DNA from: Nocardioides speluncae
Lineage (GTDB): Bacteria > Actinomycetota > Actinomycetes > Propionibacteriales > Nocardioidaceae
DNA length: 64,000 nucleotides
NCBI RefSeq assembly: GCF_003121585.1
Contig: NZ_QEOO01000037.1
Coordinates: forward strand, 124,001-188,000
Reading direction: 5' to 3'
A program made the position numbers and the translations under genes. Positions 29,034-59,280 of the stretch are shown one piece after another. Every line of letters begins with the position of its first letter. Position 1 is the first letter of the stretch. The notes under the pieces are model-generated. The model did not search any database and was not told the DNA's origin. It was given only the letters and a program-made list of their open reading frames with translations.

Positions 29034-30209
29034 GTGACCGGGCGTGCCGGCCAGCGCGAAGCTGGCCCCGCACACGGGGTCGGGTCACTCCAGGCTCTCG
29101 GCCTGAGCGCCGAGGAAAGTCAGGTGTACGTCGCGATCGCGGCGCACCGGCGGCTGCGCCGCCTCCCGCTGACGGAGCTGGTCGGCCTCAGCGGGCCACG
29201 GATCGACGCGGCGGTGCGCGGACTGGTCCAGCGCGGGTTGCTCTCGATCGAGAACGACAGCCTGGTCGCGGCGCCGCCGTACCTCGCCGGCGAGGGGCTT
29301 TTGATGCGCCGGATGGACGAGCTGCACGAGGCGCGGGTGCTCCTGGAGGAGCTCACCGATCTCTACCGCACGGCCTCCGGGGAGCACACCTCGGACGAGT
29401 TGGTCGAGCTGTTGCCGGGCCACGTCGTCGCGCAGCGCCTGGCACAGATCCAGAGCCGGGCCCGGACCGAGGTGATGATGGTCGACGCGCCGCCGTACAT
29501 CGGAGCCCTGCCGACCAACTACATGCAGCTCGAACAGCTCGCCACGCACATCACGTACCGCACGGTGTACGACCGGCGAGGTCTCGAGATGGCCGGTGGC
29601 TTCGAGCGAGCCCGCCACTACGTGGCTGCGGGCGAACAGGCCCGGGTGCTCGACCGGGCTCCGGTGAAGATGGTGATCGTGGATCGGGAGTACGCCCTGA
29701 TCCCGCAGCAGCGGGACCTCCCCGCCACGGAGGGTGGCTCGTTCCTGATCTACCGATCGCCGCTGCTGGACACGCTCGTGTCGTACTTCGAGATGTTGTG
29801 GATGTGCGGCCTGCCGCTGGATCTCGATGGCCGTGGGGCTAGCCCCGCCGACCTGTCGGCTGAGGAGAACCAGTTGCTCACCCTGCTTCTGGCCGGCTTC
29901 ACCGACGACGCGATCTGCCGTCAGCTCGGCGTGGCCAGGCGCACCGTCGTACGGCGGGTGCGGGCGCTGATGGACCGCGCCGGAGCCGCCACCCGAATGC
30001 AGCTGGGCTGGCAGGCCGCGCAGCTCGGCTGGGTGACGGCGCCCTGGCTGACCGGCGGGCTGCTCCGAAAGGACATTCCGACAGCAGCCACGGGAACTGG
30101 TGACGCACCTGCGCCAATGGCGCGGGCCGGTCAGGCCAACCCATTGAGCACGAGCCGACCGCCGGGCAACCATCACCGAGACATCAACCGCTCCCAGGAG
30201 GAACGATGA
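29034..30209 (+). CDS. TrmB-like / LuxR-type helix-turn-helix regulator
   Basis: A 391-residue regulator from GTG 29034. A TrmB-like winged helix opens it (residues 20-75, LQALGLSAEESQVYVAIAAHRR...LTELVGLSGPRIDAAVRGLVQRGLL). A phospholipase-D-like sensor region follows, and a LuxR-type helix-turn-helix is near residues 285-340 (LSAEENQLLTLLLAGFTDDAICRQLGVARRTVVRRVRALMDRAG). Proteins of this layout are common next to secreted peptidase genes in actinobacteria. Its stop overlaps the start of the S8 peptidase gene (ATGA), so the pair is translationally coupled. Confidence 0.88.
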   Translation: MTGRAGQREAGPAHGVGSLQALGLSAEESQVYVAIAAHRRLRRLPLTELVGLSGPRIDAAVRGLVQRGLLSIENDSLVAAPPYLAGEGLLMRRMDELHEARVLLEELTDLYRTASGEHTSDELVELLPGHVVAQRLAQIQSRARTEVMMVDAPPYIGALPTNYMQLEQLATHITYRTVYDRRGLEMAGGFERARHYVAAGEQARVLDRAPVKMVIVDREYALIPQQRDLPATEGGSFLIYRSPLLDTLVSYFEMLWMCGLPLDLDGRGASPADLSAEENQLLTLLLAGFTDDAICRQLGVARRTVVRRVRALMDRAGAATRMQLGWQAAQLGWVTAPWLTGGLLRKDIPTAATGTGDAPAPMARAGQANPLSTSRPPGNHHRDINRSQEER

Positions 30210-34099: not shown

Positions 34100-37000
34100 A
34101 TGAAGCCCGAGACGCCCCCCGACGGCGCCGTGCCCAGGCTGACGGTCAGTCTGCTCGGCGGCTTCGGCGTCGCACGGGCGGACCGGGGCGAGATGACCAA
34201 GCATTGGCGCCGGGAGAGCGCGCGCACGATCATCAAGCTGCTCGCCCTCGCCCCCCGACACAGCCTTCACCGCGAAGAGCTGATGGCGACCTGCTGGCCC
34301 GAGGCTGCGGCCGCTTCCGCAGTCGGCAGCCTCCGGGTCGCGGTGCATGCGGCACGCCGCGCGCTCGAGCCGGAACTCGCACCGCGTGCTCCCTCGTCGT
34401 ACCTCCACACCGACCGCGATCTGATCCTGCTCGACCCCGGGGTCGACGTCGACCTGGACCAGGCCCGCGAACAAGCCGAGCATGCCCTCGAGTCGGCCGA
34501 TGCGGGCGCGCTCGCGGCTGCAGCCGAGGCGCTCGCACCCGAGCTGCTGCCGGAGGACAGGTACGCCGACTGGGCCATGCATCCGCGACACGAGCTGGCC
34601 CGGCTGCGGCGGTCGGTTGCGCTGGCCCTCGCCGAGAGCGTCGAACCCGGACAGCAGGTGTCACAGCTCATTGCCCGCCTGGAACGGCTGGTGTCAGATG
34701 ACGAGAGTGACGAGGAGCTGACTCGTGCCCTGATGCGGCTTTTCGTGGCGGCCGGCCAGCGCGCCTCGGCCGCGGCGCGGTACCAGCGGCTCAGGACCGT
34801 GTTGCAGCAGGAGCTGGGCGTCGCCCCGACCGCCGCGACGGAGTCGTTGGCACAGTCTCTTGGTGGCGCCGTCCCGGTGCCGGGGCGGGAGCCCGAGGCG
34901 GCGCCAGTGGCCGTGCCCGCCGCGATCCGCCGGGCGGTGACGCCTTCGTTGCGAGGCCGGAGGAGGGCGCTGGCGGACCTGCTCGACGGGATGGACGCGG
35001 AGCCGCTGACCATCCTGAGCGGCGAGAGCGGGGTCGGCAAGACCCGGCTCGCGGCGGAAGCGGTCCGCCAGCTGACCGGGCGGGGTGTCCAGGTCTTGTG
35101 GGGTGCGGCGTACGAAGCCGAAGGACCGTTGCCCTACGGCCCGTTCGTCGACGCCATCGACGGCTGGTTCGCCGACCGCGAGCCCGCTGAACGCGAGGCG
35201 GCCGGGCTCGAGCATCCGGACCTGACCGGACTAGTGCCGGGGTTCGGCGGACCGCGGGTCGGCTCGGCTGTTGGCAAAGAAGACCCCGCCCGGCTGTTCC
35301 AGGCGATCGGCTCACTGCTGGACGAGATCTCTGGAGGCAGACCTCTGGTCGTGGTGCTCGACGACTTCCAGTTCGCCGACCTCGGCTCACTCCGCCTCCT
35401 GCACTACCTGCTGCGTACCCGGCCTGACGGGCCGGTCCGGTACTTGACGACGATCCGAGAGGATGCCTCGACCGACGACAACGGGGAGCGGGTCGGCACC
35501 CTGACGGCCCTCACGCGCCAGGGCCTCTCGCGTCGCATCGAGCTGATGCGGCTCTCGCGGGCCGACACCGACCGGCTGGTGCGCGACGTGGTCCACGCCA
35601 GCGGCCAGAGCACGATCGTCACCGCCTCGATGCTCGAGACGGTCCATCGGCAGTCCCGGGGGAACCCACTCCTCGCCACCGAGATCGCGAGAGTGGTTGC
35701 TGACGGGCGCACAGGGGAGGAGGGCCCACTGCCCGACATGGTGCGAGAGCTGGTCGGTGCCCGCCTGGCGCGGATGGACGAGGGCACCCGCTCGTTGCTG
35801 GCGGTGCTCGCCGTGGCCGGCGGCGCCGTGGCGCTGACCGAGGTCGAGGACGTGACGGCTACGGATCCACGCGTGATCACCGAACAGGTCGACCGCCTGC
35901 TCGCCGACCGTCTCATCGACGAGAGCGAGGTGGTCCTGTCCGGCCGCCAGGTGCCCGGTTACCGAGTCAGGCACCCGGTCATCGGCACCGCCGTCTATGA
36001 CCAGCTCAGCCTTACCCGACGCCGCCACCTGCATGGGTTGCTTGCCGCAGCCGCCCGCCGGCACCGTCCGGACGCCGTCGACGCGCTCGCGCATCATCTG
36101 GACCGTGCCGGAGACCCGGAGGCCGTCGGTTGGCTGCGGCGCGCTGCCGAGCGTGCGGTCGCCCTCTATGCCGACGACAGCGCCGACCGCCACTACAGCG
36201 CGCTCGTGGCGCGACTCATCGCGGGCGACGCCCCTGTGGAGGAAACGACAGAAGCACGTTTGGGATGGGCGGCCGTACTGACCCGTCGCGCCCACTACCC
36301 GGAGGCCGATGCGCTCCTGCGCGCGGTGCTGGCGACACCGTCGCTGACGGGGGACCACCACGCCGGCGCGCTGGCCATGCTGGGGGAGGTGCTGGGTCGA
36401 TCCGGGCGTGGCGAGGAGGGGATCGAGCTCCTCACCGAGGACCCCACCACGCCGGAACGGGTCCCGCCCCGGGTTGCCTTCGACCTGCACCTCGCGCTGG
36501 CCAACCTGCTCTTCGTGGCCGGCAGGTACGACGAGGCGCTGGCGGCCGCAGACGCGGCCGTGACCGCGGCCGCTGCCGTGGGAGGTGACCAAGAACGCCG
36601 GTCCCGCGGCCGCGCAGAACACACCCGGGCGGCCTGCCTGCTCTTCACCGGCCGGCACCGGGAGGCGCGCGCGGCCGCCGAGACAGCGCTCGCGGCAGCC
36701 GAGGAGTTCGACGACCCCGGCCAGCAGGCCAAGGCACTGTCGACATTAGGGGAGCTGGCGAGCATGCACGGCCACCTCCCTGAGGCACTCGCGATCTCCC
36801 GGCGCACGCACGCTCTCGCCGAGCGGGCGGGTGATCCCGCCGTTCTGGCCTTCGAGCGGGCGGATCTCGCGATCATCCAGCTGCGGCTCGGTGACGAGGA
36901 CCTCGCCCGCCGGACCGCCAGGTCGGCACTCAGCACCGCCCGGCCGTACGGGCTGACGTGGTGCCTGCCGTACGTCCTGCTCTCCCTCGGCGAGGTCGAG

Positions 37001-45510: not shown

Positions 45511-48432
45511 TCAGCCGGCGTCCAGCGTGGCGGTCACCAGTCTCCGGATGCCGTCCGCGGGGCTCCAGTAGCCGCCGCCGACGAGCGCTGCGGTGCGGTC
45601 GGCGCCTTCGTCGTCGAAGTCCATCGAGACGACCTCGTCGATCCCGTCGGCGTCGAAGTCCGCAACGAGGATCTCGCGAGCGGCCATGCCCGGAAGGCTG
45701 GCCACCGAGGGCGGGTAGTTGACGCCTGCGGTCAGCACGGCCGGCGAGTAGGAGATGACGGCACCGGACGCACCGCCGACCAGGATCCGACTTCTGTCCG
45801 GGCCGGTCGCGTACGCCGCAGTCTGGATCGGGGACAGCGTGAACATGCGGTGGTCCACACCGTTCGCGGCGAACGTGCGCAGTGACGCGGTGCCCGCCAT
45901 GACCAGGCCCTCCGGTCCGGTGAACCAGTTGCCCAGCGTCCAGGGGCCGCCGGCGAGCGCCTCGTGCTGTAGCTCGCCGGTACGGCCGTCGCGGATCTGT
46001 ACGACGGTCACGAGCAGGCCGCGCTCGGCGTCGCGGGTGAACCACGTGTGGACGACTGCGTGGCCGTCGGCGTAGGGGATGCCGGGCGCGGCGAACGTGC
46101 CGGCATGCAGCGGCGCCGCGTGGACCTCGCCGTCGGTGCCGGGGCCGGGCTCGGGGGTGTGGGACCACAGCGGGCTGCCGTCGGCACCCTTCAGGGCTAC
46201 CGCGCCCGCGGCGACTTCCTCTCGCGACAGCGCGTCCCGGGACGTGTACTGCGCGTGCACGCGCCCGTGGCTGACCGACACGTCGGAGAAGACGACGTCG
46301 CCGGCCGCGGGCGGGGCGGCGTACTCCCACAGCGGCGTCCCGCGGCCGTCGTAGGCCCGCACCGCGTCGGTGGGTACGACGATCTCGGCCGCGCCGTCGC
46401 CGTCGAGGTCTGCGGCGGTCACGCTCCGCGCGAAGCGGCCGGCCGCGTCGATGGTGGTCAGCACCTTGCCGGTGCGCCGGTCGAGGACCACCGTTGCGCT
46501 GTCGGCCGCCACCACGATCTCGTCCGCGCCGTCACCGTCGGTGTCCGCTTCGACGATGGCGTGCACCGGGCCGGGCACCACCGACGTCCACAGCCGCCGA
46601 GCAGACCCTGACTTCAGGGAGCGACCGGCATAGGCGAACACGCCCCGGGACTCTCCCGCGACCACGAGGTCGTCGGCGCCGTCGCCGTCGACGTCGCTCG
46701 CGACCGCGGATGAGAGCGAGCCCTGCAGCGGGAGCAGGTCCAGAGCCTTTCCGCTGCCGAGGTTGTAGGTGTGCACGTTCTGGTTCGCGTCGACGGTGCG
46801 CAGCCGCCAGCCGTCCTGGCGACGGAACGGCTGAGCAAACATGGGGGAGCCGACGACGCCGCGCTGCTCCCAGCGGACCGCCCCGGTGCTCCCGGAGAGG
46901 GTGACGAGCCTGGCGAACTTGTCACCGCCCCGGTTTCCCGCTGCGCCGGTGCCCCGGTCGTCGAGATAGGACGCGACAAGCTTGTCGTCCACCACCTGCA
47001 GCCCCCAGGCGCCGCCGCCGTCTCGGCTGTGGGAGGGATCGCGCTTCACGGTCCGGGACCACAGCGACGTGCCATCGGAACCGTCGAGCGCTCGCACGGT
47101 GTTGGCGTTGATGTAGAGGTTCTCGTCCAGGGTCGACTCGGACACCGCGTACTCGGGGGCGCTGCCGTGCTGAAGGTCGGCGACCTCAAGCGCCAGCGGG
47201 AGCGCGTTGACCCGGCGGTCGAGGACCCGTCTCTCTCCGTCGGCGAGCGAGTACGTGGCGATCTCGTAGCGGACCTCCTCGCGGACGTCGGACTGCTCGA
47301 GGGCGACCAGCCGGTCCCGCTCGGCGTCGACGCGCAGCTGCCGAGAGTAGAGCCGGTCGGTGCCGGTCCAGCGGACCGTTCCGTCGGAGGCGTCGAGCAG
47401 CAACGTGTGACCACTCGGCGCCGCGCTCGGGCTCAGCTTGCGCTGGTTCCACGAGGCCGCGACCAGCCCGTCGCCCACGGGGGTCACCGAGGCCCAGGAC
47501 GCGCCTTCGAAGGCGCCGGTGTCGTGGGACCAGACTTCCGTGGACGTGAGCCTCCCGCCGGTCTGGGCGAACCGTAGGCCCGTGAGTGTGGCCCGGGCCC
47601 CGCTGGGCGCGTTCAGGTTGTAGTAGGGAGAGTCGGCCACCACCAAGGTGCCGTCCACGAGCTCGACGTTGTACGCCGCGGCGTACAGCTTGTGCCAGAG
47701 GGTGGCGCCGCTGGCGCCGTCCAGCACGGTGACGAAGGTCCCGTTGGGAAGGCTCGAGCCCGGTGACGTGAACGGCCGGTAGGAGCGTACCCCGACGCTG
47801 GCGGTGAAGACCACGTCGTCGACGCCGTCGCCGGTGAGGTCGCCGGTGGTGAAGCCGTCGTCCGAGGCTGCGGTGAAGGGGCTGACCGCGTTGAATCCCA
47901 TCAGGATGCGTGCCGGGGCGGGCTCGGCCTGCCACGGCCGGACGGGAGTGACCTGCCAGTCCGCGTAGAGGGACTCGTTGTCGCGTCGCCAGACGGTGTC
48001 GCCCGCCGCGGTACGGCGCTGGACGCTGCCCAGCGCATGCACCATCAGGTAGTCCTCGCCTGCACCGCCGATGGGAACCGTCGCCGCCATCCCCTGGACC
48101 GCCTCGAGGGAGGACCGGGGGGTGATCCGCCATGATCCGCTCGCGGTCTCCGCCGACGTTGGGTTTGTCGGGTCGGCCGCGTCGGGCTCCTCGCCCGAGC
48201 CTGCAGCGTCTGGGGCCTGCTGCGGGTTGTGAGGCACGGCGGTGGAGTCGCCGTAGGGGTCTACCCGGACCCGCTCGGCCAGGTCCTCGGCCTGCTGGTC
48301 GGTGAGGACAATCGCTCCGCCCTCGTTCGCGGCGCCCGGAGGGGTGACCGTCACGGCCAGCGCCGCGGTTGCGGCCACGGAGATTGAGATCGCCAGCAGG
48401 TGGCGGGCCTTTCGGGGGTGGGTGCTCATCAT
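45511..48432 (-). CDS. Secreted FG-GAP/VCBS repeat protein
   Basis: A 973-residue protein with a signal peptide (residues 1-35, LLAISISVAATAALAVTVTPPGAA). At least five FG-GAP-like calcium-binding motifs are seen: TGDLTGDGVDDVVF, ASDVDGDGADDLVV, EADTDGDGADEIVV, AADLDGDGAAEIVV and VADFDADGIDEVVS, with PQQ/beta-propeller-like repeats (TVLDGASGATLWHKL, DASDGTVRWTG) between them. It probably folds as a secreted beta-propeller for binding or adhesion. Its start overlaps the stop of the S8 peptidase 3 gene (ATGATGA), so the two are coupled and may work together. Confidence 0.88.
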   Translation of the reverse strand: MMSTHPRKARHLLAISISVAATAALAVTVTPPGAANEGGAIVLTDQQAEDLAERVRVDPYGDSTAVPHNPQQAPDAAGSGEEPDAADPTNPTSAETASGSWRITPRSSLEAVQGMAATVPIGGAGEDYLMVHALGSVQRRTAAGDTVWRRDNESLYADWQVTPVRPWQAEPAPARILMGFNAVSPFTAASDDGFTTGDLTGDGVDDVVFTASVGVRSYRPFTSPGSSLPNGTFVTVLDGASGATLWHKLYAAAYNVELVDGTLVVADSPYYNLNAPSGARATLTGLRFAQTGGRLTSTEVWSHDTGAFEGASWASVTPVGDGLVAASWNQRKLSPSAAPSGHTLLLDASDGTVRWTGTDRLYSRQLRVDAERDRLVALEQSDVREEVRYEIATYSLADGERRVLDRRVNALPLALEVADLQHGSAPEYAVSESTLDENLYINANTVRALDGSDGTSLWSRTVKRDPSHSRDGGGAWGLQVVDDKLVASYLDDRGTGAAGNRGGDKFARLVTLSGSTGAVRWEQRGVVGSPMFAQPFRRQDGWRLRTVDANQNVHTYNLGSGKALDLLPLQGSLSSAVASDVDGDGADDLVVAGESRGVFAYAGRSLKSGSARRLWTSVVPGPVHAIVEADTDGDGADEIVVAADSATVVLDRRTGKVLTTIDAAGRFARSVTAADLDGDGAAEIVVPTDAVRAYDGRGTPLWEYAAPPAAGDVVFSDVSVSHGRVHAQYTSRDALSREEVAAGAVALKGADGSPLWSHTPEPGPGTDGEVHAAPLHAGTFAAPGIPYADGHAVVHTWFTRDAERGLLVTVVQIRDGRTGELQHEALAGGPWTLGNWFTGPEGLVMAGTASLRTFAANGVDHRMFTLSPIQTAAYATGPDRSRILVGGASGAVISYSPAVLTAGVNYPPSVASLPGMAAREILVADFDADGIDEVVSMDFDDEGADRTAALVGGGYWSPADGIRRLVTATLDAG

Positions 48433-51029
48433 GCTGCCTTTCGAGCGAATCGGATCGCGGAGCCGTCGGCCAGGACCGGGTGGCCGAAGGAGTACTCGAG
48501 TGCGTCGGTGCCGCCCTGGTCCTCGAGTCCGACGGTCGCGGAGCTACCCCGTTCGAGGGGGTTGTCGTCGATGTCCTTGAACTGGAGCGTGATCGCGCCG
48601 CTGGCCTCGTCGAGGAGGACCTGGAAGGAGACCCGGCTCGCGGGGGCGTCGGCCAGCGCCGCGTTGTTCCACGCGATCGTGAACCGCCGCGCTCCTGGGG
48701 TGCCGGTCAGAGCGGTCTGCACGCTGGAGCGCTTGTCGAGGACCAGGTCGTCCCAGAAGGCGGCCACGATGCCGTTGGGCTGGCCCGGTGCGGGCAACGC
48801 CGTGTTGTGGTAGTCGCCGAGCCGGGGCTGCAGGAAGTTCACCAGACCGTTCGTGGTGACGCTCGCGGTGGTGTACCCGACGCCGTAGAGTTCGACCGGG
48901 AACGGCAGCGCCAGGGTGTGGGCGTCCTCGTCGCCGGTCAGCGGCAGCCTGGTGTCGCCCTTGACCCACCGGAAGCCGACGGGCGCACAGCTGTTGCCCC
49001 AGACGTCCGTCCGGTTCGGCAGGGCCACGGTCAGGTCCTCGTCGCCGTCGACCGCGAGCGGGCCCGAATGGTCGCCGTTGCACAGCGCCGGGGCGGCCGG
49101 CTCGGCGCCGAGCGTGAAGTCGCCCTCGGCTACGGCCGGGAACCGGAACCTGCCTGTGGCATCGGTGGCGACGGCCGGCACCGGTGTGTCGGCGATCCGC
49201 ACGGCCACGCCGGCCAGGGGCGCACCGCTCACGTCGAGGACGGTGCCGGTCACGACATGGCGGGACACGGCGTCGAGCCCAAAGTCTCTGACGGCGTCGC
49301 CGCCCGAGGTGACCTCGTAGTCCGGCATGGCGAGGTCCGCGAAGCCGTACGCGCTGAGGTCGAGGGTGTAGGTCCCCGCGGGAAGAGTCAGTCGATAGGC
49401 ACCCTCGGCGCCGGTCCTCACCGAGCGCAGCATGGTTGCGCTGCTCGCGGTCACCGAGGCGTTGGGAATCGGCGCGCCAGTGGCCCGGTCCGTGACGGTT
49501 CCGGAGATCACGGCGGCTGTGTGCGGCGCCGCGTCGACGGCCGCGAGGGCGTCCAGCTTGCCCTCACCCCAGACGTTGTTGCGGTCCGCGGTTCCTCCGC
49601 AGTGAGTATCGGCGACGTTGCGTGCGGTCCGGTCGAGCAGGGCCCGCGTGCCAGCGATGTCACCGATCAGCGACGGAGCCTCGGCCCAGAGCAGGGCGAC
49701 GGCGCCGGCGACGTGGGGAGTCGCCATCGAGGTGCCGTTGAGGGACCGGTAGCCGGTGCCGGGCCAGGCCGAGCGGACGGCAACGCCCGGCGCGGCGATG
49801 TTCGGCTTCATCGAGCCGTCGACGAGCGACGGCCCGAACCCGGAGAAACCGGCGATCTTGCCGTCGGCGCCGTACGCACCCACGCCGTACGCCGGCGCCT
49901 GGCTCCCGGGTGCGTGCGCCGTCGAGCAGGTGACGCCATCGCCGTCGTTGCCGGCGGCGAACGCCTCGAAGATCCCGGCGGCGTTGCATGCCTCGACGAT
50001 GTCCTGATAGAACGTGGTGTCGCCACCGCCCCACGAGTTGTTGACGATGTGTGGTGCGAGGTCGGGTCGCGGATTCTGTCCGTTCCGGTCTGTCGGCGCC
50101 AGGGTCCACTGTCCGGCCGCCAGGAGCGAGGCGTCGGAACATGACCTGGCCTCGCAGCCCTTGGCCGCGATCCAGGTGGCGCCCGGCGCGACGCCGACGC
50201 CGTCGGCACCGGCCATCGTGCCCATGGTGTGGGTGCCGTGGCCGTTGTTGTCGCAGGGGACTCCGTTGGTGCATTGACCGATCGGGTCGAAGAAGTTGTA
50301 GTCGTGCGCGAAGGCGCCGTCGCCGAGGTTGCCGCGGTAGCTCTCCACCAGCGACGGGTGGTCGTAGTCCACACCGGAGTCGATGTTGGCGATCACGATC
50401 CCCTCGCCGGTATCGCCGTACTGGGCCCACACCTCGTCGGCCCTGACGTCTGTGATCCCCCACTCGGGGACGACTGCGGCCGGGCTCGCGGTGAGGCCGG
50501 AGACCGGCCCAGCCCCGGCGTTCGGGGCGGAACCGGACGCGGCGACGACGCGGTCGAGCGGGTAGCGCCGTTCCCGGACCAGCTCCGCGACGTCGGGTCG
50601 GGCAGCCAGCGTCTCGACCAGGTGCCGGTCGGCGGTGGTCACCCGGACAGCGTTGGTGAGCCAGAAGGACCGGTAGCCGACCCGCTCGCGGTCCAGCAGT
50701 GCCGTGACCGGACGCTGCGAGCGGGTGGCGTGGCCGCGGAGCGCGTCGTACGTCGCTCGGGCCCGGGCCGCGTGGCCGTGCCCCCGGCGCGTCGTGGAGA
50801 GGTCCGCCTTGTCCCGGAGCACGACGTAGAAGGTCGCCGGCTTGGCAGCGTCGACGGCCTCGAGGATCGCCGGGTCGACGGCCGCCCGGCGCGGCGCTTC
50901 GGTCGCCACGGTCGGCTGTGCCACAGCGCCGGAAGCGATGCCGCCAGCGCCGCCGACGAGCGCCAGGATCGCCAGCACCAGGGCCGGGATGGCGCGCCGG
51001 CGGTCCCTACGCGGGCTACGGGGGTTCAT
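48429..51029 (-). CDS. Secreted S8 family subtilisin-like serine peptidase 3
   Basis: An 866-residue secreted protease with a signal peptide (residues 1-38), an I9-like propeptide (about 50-160) and a peptidase domain with Asp217 (IANIDSGVDYDHPS), His264 (NNGHGTHTMG) and Ser434 ([12 protein letters not shown]). Two carboxypeptidase-regulatory-like domains follow (ISGTVTDRATGAPIPNASVT, VTGTVLDVSGAPLAGVAVRI) and a C-terminal region with CxxxG and beta-sandwich segments. It is a bacillopeptidase-F-like subtilisin. It is the first gene of a two-gene operon with the FG-GAP protein; box C lies 98 bp upstream. Confidence 0.95.
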   Translation of the reverse strand: MNPRSPRRDRRRAIPALVLAILALVGGAGGIASGAVAQPTVATEAPRRAAVDPAILEAVDAAKPATFYVVLRDKADLSTTRRGHGHAARARATYDALRGHATRSQRPVTALLDRERVGYRSFWLTNAVRVTTADRHLVETLAARPDVAELVRERRYPLDRVVAASGSAPNAGAGPVSGLTASPAAVVPEWGITDVRADEVWAQYGDTGEGIVIANIDSGVDYDHPSLVESYRGNLGDGAFAHDYNFFDPIGQCTNGVPCDNNGHGTHTMGTMAGADGVGVAPGATWIAAKGCEARSCSDASLLAAGQWTLAPTDRNGQNPRPDLAPHIVNNSWGGGDTTFYQDIVEACNAAGIFEAFAAGNDGDGVTCSTAHAPGSQAPAYGVGAYGADGKIAGFSGFGPSLVDGSMKPNIAAPGVAVRSAWPGTGYRSLNGTSMATPHVAGAVALLWAEAPSLIGDIAGTRALLDRTARNVADTHCGGTADRNNVWGEGKLDALAAVDAAPHTAAVISGTVTDRATGAPIPNASVTASSATMLRSVRTGAEGAYRLTLPAGTYTLDLSAYGFADLAMPDYEVTSGGDAVRDFGLDAVSRHVVTGTVLDVSGAPLAGVAVRIADTPVPAVATDATGRFRFPAVAEGDFTLGAEPAAPALCNGDHSGPLAVDGDEDLTVALPNRTDVWGNSCAPVGFRWVKGDTRLPLTGDEDAHTLALPFPVELYGVGYTTASVTTNGLVNFLQPRLGDYHNTALPAPGQPNGIVAAFWDDLVLDKRSSVQTALTGTPGARRFTIAWNNAALADAPASRVSFQVLLDEASGAITLQFKDIDDNPLERGSSATVGLEDQGGTDALEYSFGHPVLADGSAIRFARKAA

Positions 51030-51126
51030 CGGGGTGCTCTCCTTCGGTCAGTGACCGGTCCCGACGGGGGTCGACGTCGGGGGGAGCATCGATCGGGACC
51101 GGCCGCGCCGAAGCTACGCACGGGGA

Positions 51127-51143
51127 GTTACTGGGCGATTACC
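51127..51143 (-). promoter_or_regulatory. 17-bp box C with 11-bp-spaced repeats, upstream of the S8 peptidase 3 operon
   Basis: On the minus strand this reads GGTAATCGCCCAGTAAC, with GTAAT and GTAAC starting 11 bases apart, 98 bp before the ATG. It is the third copy of the box shared by all three S8 operons. Confidence 0.65.
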
Positions 51144-51203
51144 CGCGCCGTCGCCGCAGTGGTCCGCGCCGACCCCCGTCCGGCCCGGACCACTGCTGAC
51201 TGC

Positions 51204-52340
51204 TCAGCGGCCGATGACCTCGAGCTCGTAGATCCGTGTAGCGGGCCATGGAGCGCCGGACTGGACCGAGGCGGTGACGTTCAGCCGGACGTAGCGTCCG
51301 CTCACGGTCACCGGGTGGCTGCTGGTGCCCTCGGCGTTGGCGGTGACCGTGGTGACGGTGCGCCAGGCGCGGCCGTCATCGGAGACGGCGATCGTGAAGG
51401 CACGGGTGTTGTAGTGGGCCGGCTCGCCGCCGGACTGGGCGTGCTTCACGACGAGCTTCTCGATCTCCTTGGTCGCGCCGAGGTCGACCTGCAGCCAGCC
51501 GGCGTTGCCCGACGAGCAGAACTTGTCGCTGTTGCCACCGGACACGCTGCCGTTGACCGCCTTGGCCGGGCGCTCGCTCGATGCGCACGCGGTGGAGCCG
51601 GTGGCCGCCTTGTTGAGGGCGAGGTTGCTGCTGGTCGGGGGCGGCGTTGTGCCGGCGCCGCCGAAGAACTCGGCGACGCCCTTGGCGACCTCGGGCGACT
51701 GAAGGGTCTCGATGTGGGTAAAGCAGCCGGCCGTGGTGTGGTTCTCGGCGCCAGCAAGCGGCGTCGAGGTCGGCGGGTTGATCACGTTGTCGCAGGTCGA
51801 GACCCAGGTGGCGTACGCCGTGCTGCCGGGCGTCTCGTCACCGGAGTTGAGCGCGTTGAGGAACGAGGAGCCGGGGGCCATCTGCGGGCAGGCGGGGTCG
51901 GAGGTGATGATGAAGCAGAAGCTGGCCTGCGATGTGCCGTGGTTGGGGCCGGCGATGCTGGCGAAGTGGCCGACCTTGGCGTCGCCGCCGAGGTTCTTGA
52001 GGTAGTAGCGCGAGCTGAGGCCGCCCATCGAGAAGCCGATCAGGTCGACCTTGGCGGCCCCGCTCGAGGCGCGGACCTGGTCGACCAGCGTGGACAGCTT
52101 GGCCGCGACATCCTCGTTGCGGATGTCGTTGGCGAAGTCGAGGGAGTAGATGTCGCCGTCGGCGTACCCCTCGGCGATCAGGTTCGGCTTGATCGCGGAG
52201 ACGTCGGACGCCGCACCGCCGTAACCGTGGACGAAGATGACCGGGTTCCGGTCGGCTGCCTGTGCCTGGGCTGGTGCGGCTTGCAGGCAGGTGGCCAGGC
52301 AGATCATCACGATCGCCAGGCCCGAGAAGATGCGGGTCAC
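51204..52340 (-). CDS. Secreted lipase with C-terminal F5/8 type C (discoidin) domain
   Basis: A 378-residue protein from GTG 52340 (GAGGGAG upstream). Signal peptide at residues 1-29. The lipase domain (30-230) is of the LipA/EstA class: NPVIFVHGYGGAASDV forms the oxyanion region, Ser104 in LIGFSMGGLSSRYYL is the nucleophile, and the histidine is in CFTHIETLQSP. After a TTPPPTSS linker comes a discoidin-like domain (SNLALNKAATGSTACASSERPAKAVNG...GWLQVDLGATKEIEKLVV...YVRLNVT), which usually binds carbohydrate or surfaces. It lies next to the large LuxR regulator and shares a 16-bp upstream box with the M4 protease. Confidence 0.92.
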   Translation of the reverse strand: MTRIFSGLAIVMICLATCLQAAPAQAQAADRNPVIFVHGYGGAASDVSAIKPNLIAEGYADGDIYSLDFANDIRNEDVAAKLSTLVDQVRASSGAAKVDLIGFSMGGLSSRYYLKNLGGDAKVGHFASIAGPNHGTSQASFCFIITSDPACPQMAPGSSFLNALNSGDETPGSTAYATWVSTCDNVINPPTSTPLAGAENHTTAGCFTHIETLQSPEVAKGVAEFFGGAGTTPPPTSSNLALNKAATGSTACASSERPAKAVNGSVSGGNSDKFCSSGNAGWLQVDLGATKEIEKLVVKHAQSGGEPAHYNTRAFTIAVSDDGRAWRTVTTVTANAEGTSSHPVTVSGRYVRLNVTASVQSGAPWPATRIYELEVIGR

Positions 52341-52409
52341 GGGGGCTCCCTCGGTGGTGCGGGCTGCGACGGGGATGCGCAGGTCCGCACAGGAAACCTC
52401 ATCGTTGCC

Positions 52410-52425
52410 GCCGAGACATCCGCCA
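52410..52425 (-). promoter_or_regulatory. 16-bp box shared by lipase and M4 protease promoters (copy 1)
   Basis: On the minus strand TGGCGGATGTCTCGGC lies 70 bp upstream of the lipase start; the next bases, GGCA against AGCA, also agree save one. The same 16 bases occur at 57238-57253, 65 bp before the M4 protease start, in the same orientation. Confidence 0.65.
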
Positions 52426-52438
52426 TCCGGCGTAGCGC

Positions 52439-54817
52439 TCAGCCCCGGCGGGCGTGCTCGGCGGCGATCTCGACCCGCGACGACAGGCGCAGTTTGCCGA
52501 GGATGCTCGACACGTGGCTCTGCACGGTGCGCGGCGAGATCCGCAGCTGGGCGGCGATCTCGGGGTTGGTGCGGCCTGCGGCGACCTGCTCGGCGACGCG
52601 TGCCTCGGTCTCGGTCAGGCTGTCCCAGCCGTGGCCGGGGCGGGTCCGTGCACCGCGCACGCCGAGGCGCAGGCCCTCGTCGCGGAGGCTGGCCCGCGCC
52701 CGGTCGAGCTCGCCGCGCGCGGTGAGCCCGCGGTAGGCCTCGACGGTCGGTTCGAAGGTTGCCCGCGCGTCCGGCAGCCGGCCCGCGCGGGCAAGGCCCT
52801 TGGCCGCCTCCTCACCGACCCAGGCGGCCTCCAGCTCCGCGCCCAGGTCCAGCAGGCGGCGCTGCACGGCCAGCAGCTGGTCCGGGTCGCCGGAGAGCAG
52901 CGCCCGGCTCATCTCGGCTCCGGCGCCATCGACGCCCTCCGCCGCCTCGATCGCAGCGGTGATCTCCTCGGCGACGGCGCGGTCGCCGGCCGCCAGCGCG
53001 ATCCGCACCAGCCGTGGGCCGACCCCGGCCACCGTGCTGCCCTGGTGTACGCCGACCACCCCGTCGACAATGCCGCGGACCAGGACCAGTGCGTCGTCGT
53101 ACCGACCCTCGAGCTCGGCGCTCATGGCTTCGGCGACCACCGAGAACCCGCCGTAGAACAGTCCGATCCCTCGGGTGCTGCCGGCCAGCTCGCGGGCGCG
53201 TTCCACGCTCGCGCGACTGCGGGTGCGGTCTCCACGGTGGACGGCGACCAACGCGGCGAGGGCGTGCAGCGGCTGGCCCAGTCCCATCCCCTCCGCGTGC
53301 GGCGCGGCCCGCTCCACCTCGGTGAGTACGTCGTCCCAGTGGCCGACGTTGTAGAGCATCAGCGCCAGCACCAACTGCCACCAGGCCAGGCCGGCGGCGC
53401 CGACCTGCTCGGCGAGGGGGCGGGCTGACTCCAGTACCGTCAGCGCCTCGGCCGGGTCCAGACAGCTCGCTTTCAGGACGATCCCGGCCAGCTCTGCGGC
53501 CGGGTCGGCGGCCTCGTCTACCAGCGCGGCGGCTGCGGCAAGCTGGGCCAGCGCCGCGTCCCAGTCGCGTACCAGGTAGCTCACGCTTGCCAGCACCTGG
53601 CAGCGATAGGTCACCGCCTGCGGGTCGTCGGTGTCCGCGAGTGCGGCCAGCGCCTCCTGGCCCGCTTCGAAGTCGCCGTCCAGGGCCGCGGCGATGGCGG
53701 TCACCCCGGTGAGCCGGGCCGCCCACGGCTCCGGCGGGTCCGCGGCCAGGGCGGCGCCGGCGGCCGCCCGAGCATCGTGAGACGCCCCGAGCGCGAGATG
53801 CGCCTGTGCGGCGACCAGCGCAAGTGGCGGCGGCAGCGGCTCGCTGGGCAGCCGGGCGTGCACCAGTGCCTCGGCCGCGCGTCCGGAGTGGACCAGCGCG
53901 GCCGCGTACTCGGCCCGGTTCCGAGCCGGGTCCAGCAGCCGGACCGCGGTGTACGGCGCCCGCGCCGCCAGCAGCCGGGGTGGCAGCCCACTGCGCTCGA
54001 GCAGCTCGACCAGCCTGGGCCGCTGGTCCGGTTCGAGGCGATGGGCCAGGGCGTCGGTCAGGCCCGGGTGCCGCAACGCCAGCCCGGAGCGACCGTGGTC
54101 GACCAGGCCGCGCCGCCGCAGAGCGGTGACTGCCGCAGCGACCGCCTCCGGTGTCCGCCCGGACGCGGCTGCCAGCCGCTGCGTCGTACCCACGCCGTCT
54201 AGTGCCGCCGCCCACCACAGCACGTCCGCCTCGTCAGCGGGCAGCATCGCGGCGACCTGGTCGCCGAGGTCCGGGTCGTCGAGCCGAGCGAGTAGCCACG
54301 GGTTGCCGCCTGCGCGCGGATCGGCGCCGGTCAGCGGCGCCAGCTCCACCTCGTCGGCCGCGGCGAAGGTCCGCTGGACTCGCTCGTCACCCGGGCCTCG
54401 GTGGTAGGCCAGAACCAGGAGTCCGTCGTACAACCGCCGCTCGGCGACCGCCCGGAACACAAGCAGGGTGTCGTCGTCGGCGAGGTGGACGTCATCGACG
54501 AGTACTGCGCGAGCGCCCGACCACGCCTCGGCGACCGCGGCCGCGGTCGTGGCGATCCCGTGCCCGCCTGCCGGTGCGCCCGGGTTGAGCCAGGGCGCCA
54601 AGGTGGCCAGCGGCCGGCCCCGGTCCAGCGGCGTGGCCCGGCCCCGCAGGATCGACGCCCGCTCGGCAGCCAGGTCGGCAGCCAGGTCGTCGAGCACGGT
54701 CGTGACCCCCAGGCCGGGCAGCCCGCCGAGCAGCACCAGTCCGGGCTCGGCGGCGACCAGCCGCGCCACCGCTCCGGCACGGCCCACTGGGGTCTCGGCG
54801 TTAACCATCGTCGGCAT
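52439..54817 (-). CDS. Large LuxR-family (LAL-type) ATPase regulator
   Basis: A 792-residue regulator. The N-terminal AAA ATPase has the P-loop-like GGLPGLGVTTVLDDL (a non-canonical Walker A with GVTT in place of GKT/S) and VLVDDVHLADDDTLLVFRAV as Walker B. A long helical-repeat middle follows. The last 65 residues are a LuxR-type helix-turn-helix (LTETEARVAEQVAAGRTNPEIAAQLRISPRTVQSHVSSILGKLRLSSRVEIAA). The weak Walker A lysine may mean ADP/ATP binding without hydrolysis. The gene lies just upstream of the lipase on the same strand and may act on the 16-bp box (inference). MPTM at 54817 or MVN at 54808 may be the start. Confidence 0.88.
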   Translation of the reverse strand: MPTMVNAETPVGRAGAVARLVAAEPGLVLLGGLPGLGVTTVLDDLAADLAAERASILRGRATPLDRGRPLATLAPWLNPGAPAGGHGIATTAAAVAEAWSGARAVLVDDVHLADDDTLLVFRAVAERRLYDGLLVLAYHRGPGDERVQRTFAAADEVELAPLTGADPRAGGNPWLLARLDDPDLGDQVAAMLPADEADVLWWAAALDGVGTTQRLAAASGRTPEAVAAAVTALRRRGLVDHGRSGLALRHPGLTDALAHRLEPDQRPRLVELLERSGLPPRLLAARAPYTAVRLLDPARNRAEYAAALVHSGRAAEALVHARLPSEPLPPPLALVAAQAHLALGASHDARAAAGAALAADPPEPWAARLTGVTAIAAALDGDFEAGQEALAALADTDDPQAVTYRCQVLASVSYLVRDWDAALAQLAAAAALVDEAADPAAELAGIVLKASCLDPAEALTVLESARPLAEQVGAAGLAWWQLVLALMLYNVGHWDDVLTEVERAAPHAEGMGLGQPLHALAALVAVHRGDRTRSRASVERARELAGSTRGIGLFYGGFSVVAEAMSAELEGRYDDALVLVRGIVDGVVGVHQGSTVAGVGPRLVRIALAAGDRAVAEEITAAIEAAEGVDGAGAEMSRALLSGDPDQLLAVQRRLLDLGAELEAAWVGEEAAKGLARAGRLPDARATFEPTVEAYRGLTARGELDRARASLRDEGLRLGVRGARTRPGHGWDSLTETEARVAEQVAAGRTNPEIAAQLRISPRTVQSHVSSILGKLRLSSRVEIAAEHARRG

Positions 54818-54903
54818 TCTCGCCGATGCTGCCCGGTGGCTCGCTCGAGTGTCTCGCGATCGCCGCTGACGAAGGGCTCGTCGACCCGCTACGGCCCGTT
54901 CAG

Positions 54904-55460
54904 TTAGAGCAGGCGGTTGGCGGTGCCCGGGGGCTGGTGATCGCATTCGGGTCGCTGTGTCGCTGTGTTCCCCAGGTACCACTTGACGGTCGCCGGGGTC
55001 GCATCCGGGTGGCTCTGGAGGTAGAGCGCGGAGGCTCCGGCGACGTGCGGCGTCGCCATCGACGTACCGGACCGGACGCCGACGTCACCGCCGGGCACGG
55101 TCGACTAGATCTGCTGACCGGGCGCGGAGATGTCGACGCACGGACCGCTGCTGGAGCCGAAGCCGCGGCCATCGGTGCTGGTGGAAGACGCCACGATCAT
55201 GTGGAGGCCTTCACTGCGTTGATGCGTGCGCATCCGGCTGGGCGTCGGCGAGTGCCTGGTCGACGATGGCGTCCTCGCTTATCGCGACCACTGCTCGGTG
55301 CCGACGAAGGATCCTGAGCTGCGCCGCAGTGAGGTCGGTGGCGAACCCGACGACGGCGGCGTCCTACACGTGGGTAGCGCGGATGCCGAGCGCGCCGGTG
55401 ACGTACTCGGCGATGGCGCGCGCAGCACTCGGCGGGCTGGTCGGGCCAAGGAACTCGGCG
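54904..55460 (-). pseudogene. Relic of an S8 subtilisin gene
   Basis: Minus-strand pieces of an aqualysin-like subtilisin. An I9 propeptide remnant reads GFATDLTAAQLRILRRHRAVVAISEDAIVDQ with a TAG before it. After a short gap it continues with MIVASSTSTDGRGFGSSSGPCVDISAPGQQI, a TAG at about 55108, and then [41 protein letters not shown]. The parts lie in different frames, and the region that should hold the catalytic Asp and His is deleted. It is a dead gene; only the serine motif survives. Confidence 0.85.
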
Positions 55461-55505
55461 GTAGGGCGACCGCGCCCTGCCGCCGGTCACGGTGAGCGCG
55501 GAATC

Positions 55506-55545
55506 CCTGTGATGTCCCGGGAGGGAGGACCCAGGACATCACAGG
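55506..55545 (-). terminator. Hairpin terminator of the M4 protease gene
   Basis: CCTGTGATGTCC (55506-55517) and GGACATCACAGG (55534-55545) form a perfect 12-bp stem with a 16-base loop, 17 bases after the stop of the leftward M4 gene. Confidence 0.75.
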
Positions 55546-55562
55546 TCGGCCTCGCGGCGTCG

Positions 55563-57173
55563 TCAGAGGACGTTGACCGCGCTCCAGGCGCTGGCGACTG
55601 CGTTGTGCTCGGTCGACCCGGCGCCGTATAGGTCACGGGCGGCGTTCAGCGTGGCCGTCCGCGCACCCGCGTAGTTGGTCGACGAGGTCATGTACACGGT
55701 CAACGCGCGGTACCAGATCGCGCCGGCCTTGGCGCGGCCGATGCCGGCGACCGTCGAGCCGTTGCAGGTCGTAGAGCCGTGCTGGCGGCCGCCGATGGTC
55801 TTGATGCCTGAGCCTTCGGCGAGCAGGTAGAAGAAGTGGTTGCCGATGCCCGAGGAGTAGTGCACGTCCACGTCCCCGACGCCGGCGCGCCAGCAGTCCA
55901 CGGACTTGCCGTCCGCCGACGGCTGGTCCATACGCCGGAAGCCGTCGTGCTGGGCGACGTCGAACTCCTCGCCCACGAAGTAGTCGCCCGGGTCGTTGGG
56001 GTTGGCGGCGTAGAACTCCACCATTGAGCCGAAGATGTCCGAGGTGGCCTCGTTGAGGCCGCCGGACTCACCGGAGTAGGTGAGGTTCGCGGTGTTCTGG
56101 GTGACACCATGCGACATCTCGTGGCCGGCGACGTCGAGCGACACCAGTGGTCCGAACCCCTTGGTGGTGTCACCGTCGCCGTACGTCATCTTCTTGCCGT
56201 CCCAGAACGCATTGACGTAGTTCTGACCGTAGTGGACCCGGCTGAGCGCGCCGCGGCCGTCGTTCCAGATCCCATTGCGGCCGTGCGCGGACTTGTAGTA
56301 GTCCCAGGTCATGTTCGCGCCATACTGCGCGTCCACGCCGGCAGACTCGCGGTTGCCGTTGGTGCCGTCACCGAAATGGGCGTCCGTGCTGGTGATCTGG
56401 GAGCCGAGGCGGCAGCCCCAGCCGAACAGGGTGCAGAAGATCGAGTCAGAGGCGCCGTTCATGTCCGAGGTCCAGCTCTTGCCACGGCTGAGGCTCTCCA
56501 GCCAGTACTTGCCCTCGTCGAGGTTGGGGTCCAGCTGCACGGTCCCGGAGTAGAGCGACTGGCCGTCGCCCTCGGCGGTGTGGATCTGCTGCTCGGCCCG
56601 GATCAGCTGCCCGGTGCGGGCATCGACGTACGTCGCCAGCCGGCTCGGCGTGCCGTCTCGCTGTGTTCCAGCGCTGATCACCTCCCAGGCCAGCCGCGGC
56701 GCCTTCCCGCGGGTGGCGTCGATGACGAGCTCGGTCTCGACCTCGGCGTCCTCGTCGCGTCTGATCCCATGGTTGAGCTTGTTCTTGGCCAAGGCCTTGG
56801 CCTCGGCGCTGCGACCGTTCACCCTCGCGGTCGTGGGCAGGTCGACCGGCCTGGACAGGGTCTGGCTGACGCCCTCGAAGCCCAGACGTCGGTCCTGGTG
56901 CACGACCAGGTCACCACCGACGACGCGCAGGCCGTCAATGGTGCGGTCGAGGCGGACGTGGCTGCTGCCGTCCTTGTCGAGGATCGTCTCGCGGACCTGG
57001 AACGTCTGCCCGTCGGCGGCCCGGGCCGCGCCGGGGTGCGCCTTGAGAGCCTTCATCGCCGCGGCCTCGTAGCTCGGCCGCTTCGGCGCTGGTGCGCTCG
57101 ACGCGTTGGTGGGTACGCCGGACACGACCAGGGTTGCGATCGCGACGGCGGCGAATCCTGCTGCTGAGCGCAT
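55563..57173 (-). CDS. Secreted M4 (thermolysin-like) metallopeptidase
   Basis: A 536-residue protein with a signal peptide (1-27), an FTP/PepSY propeptide (about 45-200) and an M4 catalytic domain. The zinc ligands are His351 and His355 of HEMSH (GHEMSHGVTQ) with Glu352 as catalytic base and Glu375 (GGLNEATSDIFG) as third ligand. A later histidine in VHYSSGIGNHFFYLL fits the transition-state site. AAAGGAG lies 7 bases before the ATG at 57173; longer upstream reading frames are not needed. It shares a promoter-proximal box with the lipase and ends at a strong terminator. Confidence 0.95.
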   Translation of the reverse strand: MRSAAGFAAVAIATLVVSGVPTNASSAPAPKRPSYEAAAMKALKAHPGAARAADGQTFQVRETILDKDGSSHVRLDRTIDGLRVVGGDLVVHQDRRLGFEGVSQTLSRPVDLPTTARVNGRSAEAKALAKNKLNHGIRRDEDAEVETELVIDATRGKAPRLAWEVISAGTQRDGTPSRLATYVDARTGQLIRAEQQIHTAEGDGQSLYSGTVQLDPNLDEGKYWLESLSRGKSWTSDMNGASDSIFCTLFGWGCRLGSQITSTDAHFGDGTNGNRESAGVDAQYGANMTWDYYKSAHGRNGIWNDGRGALSRVHYGQNYVNAFWDGKKMTYGDGDTTKGFGPLVSLDVAGHEMSHGVTQNTANLTYSGESGGLNEATSDIFGSMVEFYAANPNDPGDYFVGEEFDVAQHDGFRRMDQPSADGKSVDCWRAGVGDVDVHYSSGIGNHFFYLLAEGSGIKTIGGRQHGSTTCNGSTVAGIGRAKAGAIWYRALTVYMTSSTNYAGARTATLNAARDLYGAGSTEHNAVASAWSAVNVL

Positions 57174-57237
57174 CAGGGTTCTCCTTTCAAGATTCCACGG
57201 CACTTCCGCGGCCCGGCCATCAAACTGCACGCATGCT

Positions 57238-57253
57238 GCCGAGACATCCGCCA
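57238..57253 (-). promoter_or_regulatory. 16-bp box shared by lipase and M4 protease promoters (copy 2)
   Basis: On the minus strand TGGCGGATGTCTCGGC, identical to 52410-52425, stands 65 bp before the M4 start. The following AGCA matches GGCA at the lipase save one base. Equal orientation and spacing mark it as a real promoter element, either for an alternative sigma factor or for an activator. Confidence 0.65.
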
Positions 57254-57663
57254 ACTGGCGGACGGCGCTCGCAGGCCGGTCCACCAGCGGATTCGCGGGT
57301 GAGGCCGCAGACCAGGCGAGCAGGACCAAAGCCCATGGGTGAGGCGATGACCCGCTGGGGACTACGTTGTCCATCCCTCGAGCTCGCCGCCGCGTCCGGG
57401 CCGATGTGATCCAGACCGGGCTCCTCCGCCTCCAGCGCCTTGGCCCGGTGTTGCTAACTGACTACCACTACCGAGCGCTCCGGTTCGTCGGGACCCGACT
57501 CTCGGCGAACGAGAGTGAGCTCGCACACGATGGTTGCCGGACCTCGTTGCCGTCCCGGTCACCGAGACATCATCACAACAGTTGTCATGTGAGTTCCTAC
57601 GTTGGGCCTTCTCGTTCGGACAGACCAAACAGGCACTCAACAACACCGCAAGGCGGACGACTC
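57254..57663. other. Intergenic region before the solute-binding-protein gene
   Basis: About 410 bases between divergent transcription units without a credible gene. ACAAC-A-GTTGT (57575-57585) is a small palindrome that may be an operator for the TetR protein at 59305. A ribosome site for the gene at 57664 is weak (AAGGCGGA). Confidence 0.45.
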
Positions 57664-59280
57664 ATGAGACGAACGGCACGACTGACGACGCTAATGACCA
57701 CACTCGCCCTGCTCGCGGGTCTCGGCGCATGCGCCGAGACCCAGGACAACGAAGGCGAACGCGACCGTTCCCAGACCCAGGACTCCGTGTACGGCGCTGG
57801 CCTCGTCGGCGACACCGAGGACGAACGAGATCCTGTCGAGGGCGGCACGCTGACCTTCGCCGACTACTCCGAAGCCCGCAGCCTGGACCCCACGCAGACC
57901 ATCGCCACCGGGGCCTCGGGCGGTACGGCCCTGGCCGCCGTGTACGACGTGCTGGTTCGCTACGACGACGCCGCCGGGAAGTACGAGCCCTGGCTCGCCA
58001 AGGCCATCACTCCCAACAAGGACTCCACCCAGTGGGTGCTGGACCTCCGCCCGGGGGTGAAGTTCTCCGACGGGACCGATCTGGACGCTCGCGCGGTCAC
58101 TGCCAGCATCGAGCGCTATATCGACAACGGTGGATCGGACTCGGCACTACTGCAGAAGAACGTCACGTCGATGGAACCCAGTGACGACCACACCGTGGTC
58201 TTCACCTTGGCACGCCCGTGGAGCACCTTCCCGCGGATACTGGCCATGGGCGCGGGGATGATCGTGGCCCCGGCTGCCAGCCAGGGCACGGACTTCCGCC
58301 CCATCGGGGCCGGACCGTTCGAGCTCCAGGACTACGCTCCGTCCGAGGAGCTGGTTCTTCGTGCGCGCAGCGACTACTGGCGCGGTAAGCCGCACCTGGC
58401 CACGCTGCGGTTCGTGTGGCTCGCCGGAGGCCGTCCCAACCTTGAGAACCTCGTTGCCGGTGGAGCCGACCTGACCCTCCTCCGGGAGCCGGACGTCGTG
58501 CTCGACGCTCGCAAGGAGGATATCGCCGGCTTTATGACCCCCCTGAGCTTGGGCACCACGCTCTGGATCAACAACCGTGAGGGACGACCGGGCCTCGACG
58601 TCCGGGTACGCCAGGCCATCGCCTACGCGATGGATCCCGAGCTCTACGTCGAGCGAGCTTTCAAGGGAGCGGGGATGCCCACGAAGGACCTGTTCGGTCC
58701 CCAGTCGCGGTGGCACAGTGACGTGGCAGCACCGTCCGTGGACGCGGACCGGGCTAGCGAACTGGTCGAGGCGGCCAAGGCGGACGGCTTCGACGGTGAG
58801 CTCACCTTCGTCGGCGGAGCGTCACCGACCGGGCGCAGCGAGGCACTCGTGACCAAAGCCATGCTCGAGGACGTCGGCTTCAAGGTTGAGCTGGACCTGC
58901 TCACCAACATCGCCGATCGGATCCAGCGGCTGTACGTCGAGCGCGACTTCGACATTGCGATCGGTTCCGCGAGCGTGAGTGAGGCAGATCCGTTCCACCA
59001 GTTGCACGACACGTTGGCCAGCGACTCCATGCTGAACCTGACCGGCTACGCGTCGCCCGAGATGGATGCTGCTCTGACACGCGTGCAGGGAGCCTCCGGG
59101 CAGCCCAATCGGGCCGCGGCGATCCAGGATCTGGAGCGGCTGTGGCACGAAGACGTACCCGCGGTGAACCTTGCCACCGGTGCGACGTTCATCGCCTGGA
59201 ATCAGGACGTCCACGGGGTGAAGCCCAACGCGGAATACATGATGCTGTTCGGCGAGGCATGGCGCGCGCCTTCCGGTTGA
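57664..59280 (+). CDS. ABC transporter substrate-binding lipoprotein, family 5 (peptide/opine/nickel type)
   Basis: A 538-residue lipoprotein with the lipobox LAGLGAC (Cys23) and the SBP family 5 pattern: GGTLTFADYSEARSLDPTQTI, VLVRYDDAAGKYEPWLAKAI, WVLDLRPGVKFSDGTDLDARAV, GPFELQDYAPSEELVLRARSDYWRG and VRQAIAYAMDPELYVERAF. It should bind a peptide-like or small amine ligand outside the cell. No permease or ATPase gene is near, so it must share or lack a transporter. The following genes suggest uptake and breakdown of an amino-acid-like compound. Confidence 0.92.
   Translation: MRRTARLTTLMTTLALLAGLGACAETQDNEGERDRSQTQDSVYGAGLVGDTEDERDPVEGGTLTFADYSEARSLDPTQTIATGASGGTALAAVYDVLVRYDDAAGKYEPWLAKAITPNKDSTQWVLDLRPGVKFSDGTDLDARAVTASIERYIDNGGSDSALLQKNVTSMEPSDDHTVVFTLARPWSTFPRILAMGAGMIVAPAASQGTDFRPIGAGPFELQDYAPSEELVLRARSDYWRGKPHLATLRFVWLAGGRPNLENLVAGGADLTLLREPDVVLDARKEDIAGFMTPLSLGTTLWINNREGRPGLDVRVRQAIAYAMDPELYVERAFKGAGMPTKDLFGPQSRWHSDVAAPSVDADRASELVEAAKADGFDGELTFVGGASPTGRSEALVTKAMLEDVGFKVELDLLTNIADRIQRLYVERDFDIAIGSASVSEADPFHQLHDTLASDSMLNLTGYASPEMDAALTRVQGASGQPNRAAAIQDLERLWHEDVPAVNLATGATFIAWNQDVHGVKPNAEYMMLFGEAWRAPSG

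Follow-up and report, generated by a model that had tools for sequence, protein, structure and literature searches.

With respect to large regulators encoded next to secreted enzymes, the closest described system is the lipAR pair of Streptomyces, in which LipR, a LuxR-family activator encoded beside a lipase gene, is reported to bind conserved sequences upstream of the -35 element, and the two genes form an operon with lipA first (PMC12134079). The LuxR-type regulator SCO6993 has been footprinted on short palindromes, for which its authors report that a consensus site could not be predicted (PMC9628970). Consensus sites of large LuxR-type regulators are thus hard to predict. A related class, the LAL regulators, is defined by an N-terminal ATP-binding domain with a conserved Walker A motif (PMC3282765). 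Judging by titles, none of the papers retrieved on Nocardioides LuxR-type proteins and lipases concerned such a system, and among the matches listed for the text string TGGCGGATGTC all were unrelated by title.

The locus considered here lies in the window, that is, the whole 64-kb stretch of DNA that was analyzed, and consists of three genes on the minus strand, with the regulator gene between two hydrolase genes. The lipase (51204..52340; Pfam Lipase_2, PF01674, 3.2e-16, and F5/8 type C, PF00754, 1.6e-18) is predicted to be secreted from the features of its N-terminus. The M4 (thermolysin family) metalloprotease (55563..57173; PF02868 1.7e-52, PF01447 8.8e-45, PF07504 3e-10) has a predicted start codon placed from a signal-like N-terminus and an AAAGGAG preceding the ATG. 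The large LuxR-type regulator of 789 residues (52439..54808) carries a C-terminal LuxR/GerE helix-turn-helix (HTH) at residues 729-782 (7.7e-16), its sole Pfam match over the curated cut-off; 98 bases separate its stop (52439) from the lipase start (52340). At 76%, the G+C content of the regulator gene exceeds that of the lipase and M4 genes (68-69%), a difference that hints at a separate origin.

As in lipAR, a gene for a LuxR-HTH regulator adjoins a lipase gene; the two arrangements differ in that the regulator gene here is upstream of the lipase gene, so that the lipA-then-lipR order in one operon is not seen, and in that a second target, the M4 protease, is proposed. The locus may thus work like LipR, to which it is likened by gene neighborhood and description, and we do not file it as LipR. 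Similarly, the regulator resembles LAL and MalT-type proteins in its size, its C-terminal LuxR HTH and an N-terminal Walker A-like stretch (GLPGLGVT, residues 29-36). This stretch, however, is degenerate, with V at the lysine position; no AAA family was detected in Pfam at E 0.001, and the NCBIfam MalT model matches the protein in the HTH only. The C-terminal LuxR-type HTH of the LAL proteins is therefore present and the conserved Walker A motif is absent, and because the Walker A-like stretch has no lysine and there is no AAA match, we call the protein LuxR-type rather than LAL. The Streptomyces protein SCO0712 we take to be LipR. SCO0712 is entered without an ATP motif in the table of the paper that defines the LAL proteins (PMC3282765).

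No close relative of the regulator was found in the sets searched. In 215 genomes of the genus, with four candidates scored in each, a single relative beyond 1e-25 was found (36% over residues 300-783), and two Streptomyces plasmids match the protein at 35 and 38% over about half its length. A single-protein query of an 84,980-species collection, which misses distant relatives, returned 16 loci, 11 of them matching around the HTH only. In 34 loci queried by tblastn for the lipase, the regulator, M4 and S8, no lipase relative was detected beside the regulator relatives, in a search to which other lipase families would be invisible; a subtilase occurs within about 8 kb of a regulator relative in two of these loci (L171 and L173).

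Upstream of both hydrolase genes lies the 16-bp box TGGCGGATGTCTCGGC, which matches exactly on the minus strand at 52410..52425, 69 bases 5' of the lipase start codon (GTG at 52340), and at 57238..57253, 64 bases 5' of the M4 start codon (ATG at 57173). The original prediction of an identical box in the same orientation before the two genes, followed by four bases that differ at one position (GGCA at the lipase gene, AGCA at the M4 gene), is thus borne out. The sole other match in the 64-kb window has three mismatches. The lipase box begins 13 bases past the stop codon of the LuxR-type gene. The similarity continues into the flanks, with CGCC on the 5' side and TG-NN-GTTT on the 3' side equally spaced at both sites, so that a wider stretch of the form CGCC-N3-box-N-GCA-N4-TG-NN-GTTT is shared between 52394..52432 at the lipase gene and 57222..57260 at the M4 gene, both on the minus strand, with 30 of 39 positions identical; overall, the upstream similarity is patchy and spans about 65 bp. 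Moreover, a perfect 7-bp dyad, TCCGCCA-GT-TGGCGGA (57247..57262, minus strand), overlaps the first seven box bases at the M4 gene. At the lipase gene the corresponding TACGCCG-GA-TGGCGGA, the left arm of which begins two bases outside the shared stretch, retains five of the seven pairs in the same register, and at least five of seven pairs are found at a given position with a frequency of 0.024. A dimeric HTH could read this dyad. Perfect 7-bp dyads were found in 84 of the 360 upstream regions of the genome sample, and since dyads of such size are this common, it lends modest support to an operator.

The further claim that a chance match of this length and placement is very unlikely has to be divided, because its two parts fared differently. 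The length of the repeat is not exceptional: 22 distinct 16-mers are repeated directly in the window, merging into 13 separate repeats, of which five look paralogue-derived by our own reading of their constant spacing, so that nine distinct 16-mers in eight repeats remain; Markov simulations (20 of each order) gave means of 3.9, 5.6 and 9.25 distinct repeated 16-mers at orders 1, 2 and 3, respectively. In contrast, the placement is unusual. Genes for the upstream tests came from a simple codon-usage caller, which gave 44 for the window and 332 for twenty stretches of 20 kb. When the upstream regions of the window were compared in 496 pairs, a 16-mer was common to the lipase/M4 pair alone. Any common 16-mer was present in 14 of 2000 first-order simulated upstream sets, and at offsets within 5 bp in two of 2000; with a third-order null built on 44 upstream regions of 100 bp, the corresponding counts were 27 and three of 3000 (about 1% of sets, and 0.1% aligned). 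Real upstream regions of this genome have common 16-mers oftener than the Markov models predict: seven other pairs of the 64,980 in the genome sample do, some of them through what look like dispersed repeats or one common divergent spacer, which puts the normal background for the 946 window pairs at about 0.1 pair. The longest word common to the lipase and M4 upstream regions has 16 bases, whereas the 359 other upstream regions compared from this genome have words of at most 11 bases in common with either. When some 8% of the genome (twenty 20-kb stretches plus the window) was sampled and the upstream pairs were ranked by gapped alignment, this one came 17th of 20,100, at least 16 others being as good or better; among 1069 non-overlapping within-locus pairs it shares the top score with one other, and an alignment as good was obtained in one of 2000 simulated pairs.

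The box had also been taken to point to a second hydrolase regulon, to be checked by a genome-wide search. Across the genome (5.7 Mb, 51 contigs), 15 sites were found at up to two mismatches, as compared with five for the reversed-pattern control: two exact, one at one mismatch and 12 at two, with no third exact copy anywhere. Nine of the 13 inexact sites are inside predicted genes and four are intergenic. Two of the intergenic sites have a same-strand gene within 150 bp, by eye a secretion-type ATPase-like gene (52 bp) and a short-chain dehydrogenase-like gene (143 bp), and one genic near copy, at a gene end, sits 29 bp before what appears by eye to be a cytidine deaminase gene; with translations judged in the same manner, none of the 13 near copies precedes a recognizable hydrolase gene. 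When a 29-position pattern was built on the two sites and run over 361 upstream regions, the sites themselves reached 29 and nothing else exceeded 20. Within the window, the three subtilase genes, the FG-GAP gene and the LuxR-type gene are without the box (15-17 of 29 pattern matches), and none occurs within 754 bases 5' of the regulator gene, where the best match is 11 of 16. The regulon thus finds no support in the two exact copies, the near copies and the lack of a further member in the 361 upstream regions; an element common to the two genes is plausible, considering the 16-bp word as against at most 11 elsewhere and the overlapping dyad. Neither further copies before related genes nor conservation before homologues, the marks of a regulon box, were found in these searches, in which the homologues were distant. 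In the absence of any further copy in these searches, the box would be part of a small switch at most, and may be a coincidence.

Conservation was sought at several phylogenetic depths. Among 58 relatives including this genome, a 20-mer allowed two mismatches matched in 12, as did its reversed-pattern control (12 of 58), and in 215 genus genomes, again including this one, the same 20-mer at up to one mismatch was found in three as against none for the control; apart from the two sites in this genome, two genus genomes carry one one-mismatch site each, both inside genes. Upstream of 24 M4 homologues (L055-L078), which are only 55-65% identical to the M4 protein of the window, no box was detected, and the 350 bp preceding each alignment held matches of at best 10-11 of 16; in L065, L067, L072, L075 and L076 the alignment begins 16-53 residues in, so that part of these 350 bp is coding. 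Paralogues in the same genome (65% identity for M4 and 59% for the lipase) also are without the box: in the 500 bp upstream of the aligned region of six of the eight other M4 matches and five of the seven other lipase matches the best pattern score was 16-19 of 29, and the stretches around them contain no box at up to two mismatches. The same holds for the stretches surrounding the five nearest lipases of the genus (44-50% identical). Closer homologues were sought in samples of class genomes that include genus members, and in each case only this genome was recovered: at E 1e-60 for the regulator (394 genomes, two candidates scored per genome), at 1e-222 for the M4 protease (394 genomes, three candidates) and at 1e-66 for the lipase (316 genomes, six candidates). 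That neither the box nor a close regulator relative turned up in the relatives fits a cognate pair, and also fits coincidence.

Taken together, these observations lead us to favor weakly, at somewhat less than an even chance, the interpretation of the box as a two-target operator that is read by the adjacent LuxR-type regulator. The box would be a local operator or upstream promoter element before both secreted-hydrolase genes; the regulator would bind the dyad that overlaps the beginning of the box, and would jointly switch on the lipase and the M4 protease. This interpretation is supported by the 16-base word as against at most 11 elsewhere, by the aligned placement seen in three of 3000 simulated sets, by the joint-top score among within-locus pairs and by the dyad in one register at both sites. 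Furthermore, the boxed genes lie on either side of the LuxR-HTH gene and share its strand, neither the box (bar the two genic one-mismatch matches) nor a close regulator relative was found in the other 214 genomes of the genus, and LipR and SCO6993 provide precedents in Streptomyces. It is weakened by the at least 16 sampled upstream pairs that align as well, by the lack of degenerate copies (next best 20 of 29), by the commonness of perfect dyads, by the missing box before M4 homologues and genus lipases, by the lack of a lipase relative beside the regulator relatives and by the missing lysine in the Walker A-like stretch. Because autoregulation is common among regulators, the lack of a box upstream of the regulator gene itself is mildly against an operator. 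The main rival, to which we assign a substantial but lesser likelihood, is a functionless chance similarity picked up by scanning the whole window for repeats. Its strength lies in the 22 distinct direct 16-mers (nine without the apparent paralogues) set against the four to nine expected from composition, in the similarly strong upstream pairs that recur in the genome sample together with the 0.1 common 16-mer expected per window, and in the failure to find either a third copy or conservation in the searched sets; it sits less well with the rarity of simulated window-size sets that share any 16-mer (27 of 3000, three when aligned), with genes that are near neighbors of the same class on the same strand, and with similarity that continues on both sides of the box to an extent equaled in one of 2000 simulated pairs.

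Three other explanations each appear less likely than either operator or coincidence. Some ECF groups use TGTC-type -35 elements, and the box could belong to a promoter that an alternative (ECF-type) sigma factor recognizes, with GATGTC as a -35-like element and a -10-like GTTT 17 bases on. Indeed, GATGTC-N14-19-GTTT, a pattern chosen post hoc, occurs in two of 201 upstream regions, precisely these two, against a shuffle mean of 0.02; nevertheless, a real sigma regulon should have more members, of which the sampled upstream regions yielded none, the near copies elsewhere are not fittingly placed, and Pfam reported no sigma-factor family for the 16 window genes, of 44 predicted, that were submitted to it, so that we consider this improbable. 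A scan of 48300-57800 for promoters of the sigma-70 type listed none, although only 0.2 were expected by chance. Still less probable is that both sites are now-functionless remnants of one copied piece, through promoter duplication or conversion in the cluster: local duplication is plausible among several subtilases and a subtilase remnant, and the similarity is patchy across about 65 bp, but identity outside the box drops fast to scattered matches, unlike a recent copy, and an old copy would hardly retain 16 identical bases without selection. Finally, the box might be coding, reading [A/T]TG GCG GAT GTC TCG GCR GCA at the lipase gene as the start of a 29-codon leader ORF that terminates over the lipase start codon (GTGA overlap), and at the M4 gene as an extension of the protein in frame. 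The frames are open at both sites and the single change directly 3' of the box is synonymous; against this, third-position GC is 0.73 and 0.63 rather than the 0.93 and 0.91 of the two genes, the downstream ATG of the M4 gene is served by a good ribosome site and opens a signal-like N-terminus, and a leader in one case with an extension in the other does not make a single mechanism, so that a coding origin is highly improbable.

Should the two-target operator be real, the locus would provide another LuxR-type regulator beside a lipase gene, here paired with a protease and with a defined operator; should the similarity be due to chance, the lesson is that 64 kb of 70% GC DNA commonly holds exact 16-mer repeats. 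We further entertain, as less likely than not, a more specific proposal in which a LuxR-type regulator with a decayed ATP motif and no close relatives among the searched genomes, together with its own two-site operator, would couple a lipase to a thermolysin-type protease as a self-contained, probably acquired switch with a new operator sequence.

Several additional features of the region were recorded. The lipase and M4 genes belong to a cluster of secreted-hydrolase genes (30206-57173) that also contains subtilases at 30206, 39611 and 48429 and an FG-GAP protein at 45511, and within which a regulator with BTAD, AAA and TPR domains is encoded at 34100. Between the LuxR-type and M4 genes, at about 54950-55370 on the minus strand, a subtilase (S8) gene has left a remnant, of which 82 residues, interrupted by one stop, still give a PF00082 match (9.6e-16); the upstream part of the remnant was recognized by eye in another frame. 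Directly 3' of the M4 stop, a perfect inverted repeat TGTGATGTCC...GGACATCACA (55507-55544) is possibly a terminator; it was not listed by a terminator scan, which requires a T run and a short loop. In four of the 24 genomes with M4 homologues (L058, L059, L063 and L066), the word TGCA-NN-TT-NN-TGCA-N-TGCA, which is absent before the M4 gene of the window, occurs about 95-126 bp before the aligned start and is possibly an operator of their own. Likewise, an intergenic word beginning GGTGGTCTCGACGACG is common to three upstream regions of the present genome (L152, L164 and L165) and is perhaps a dispersed repeat.
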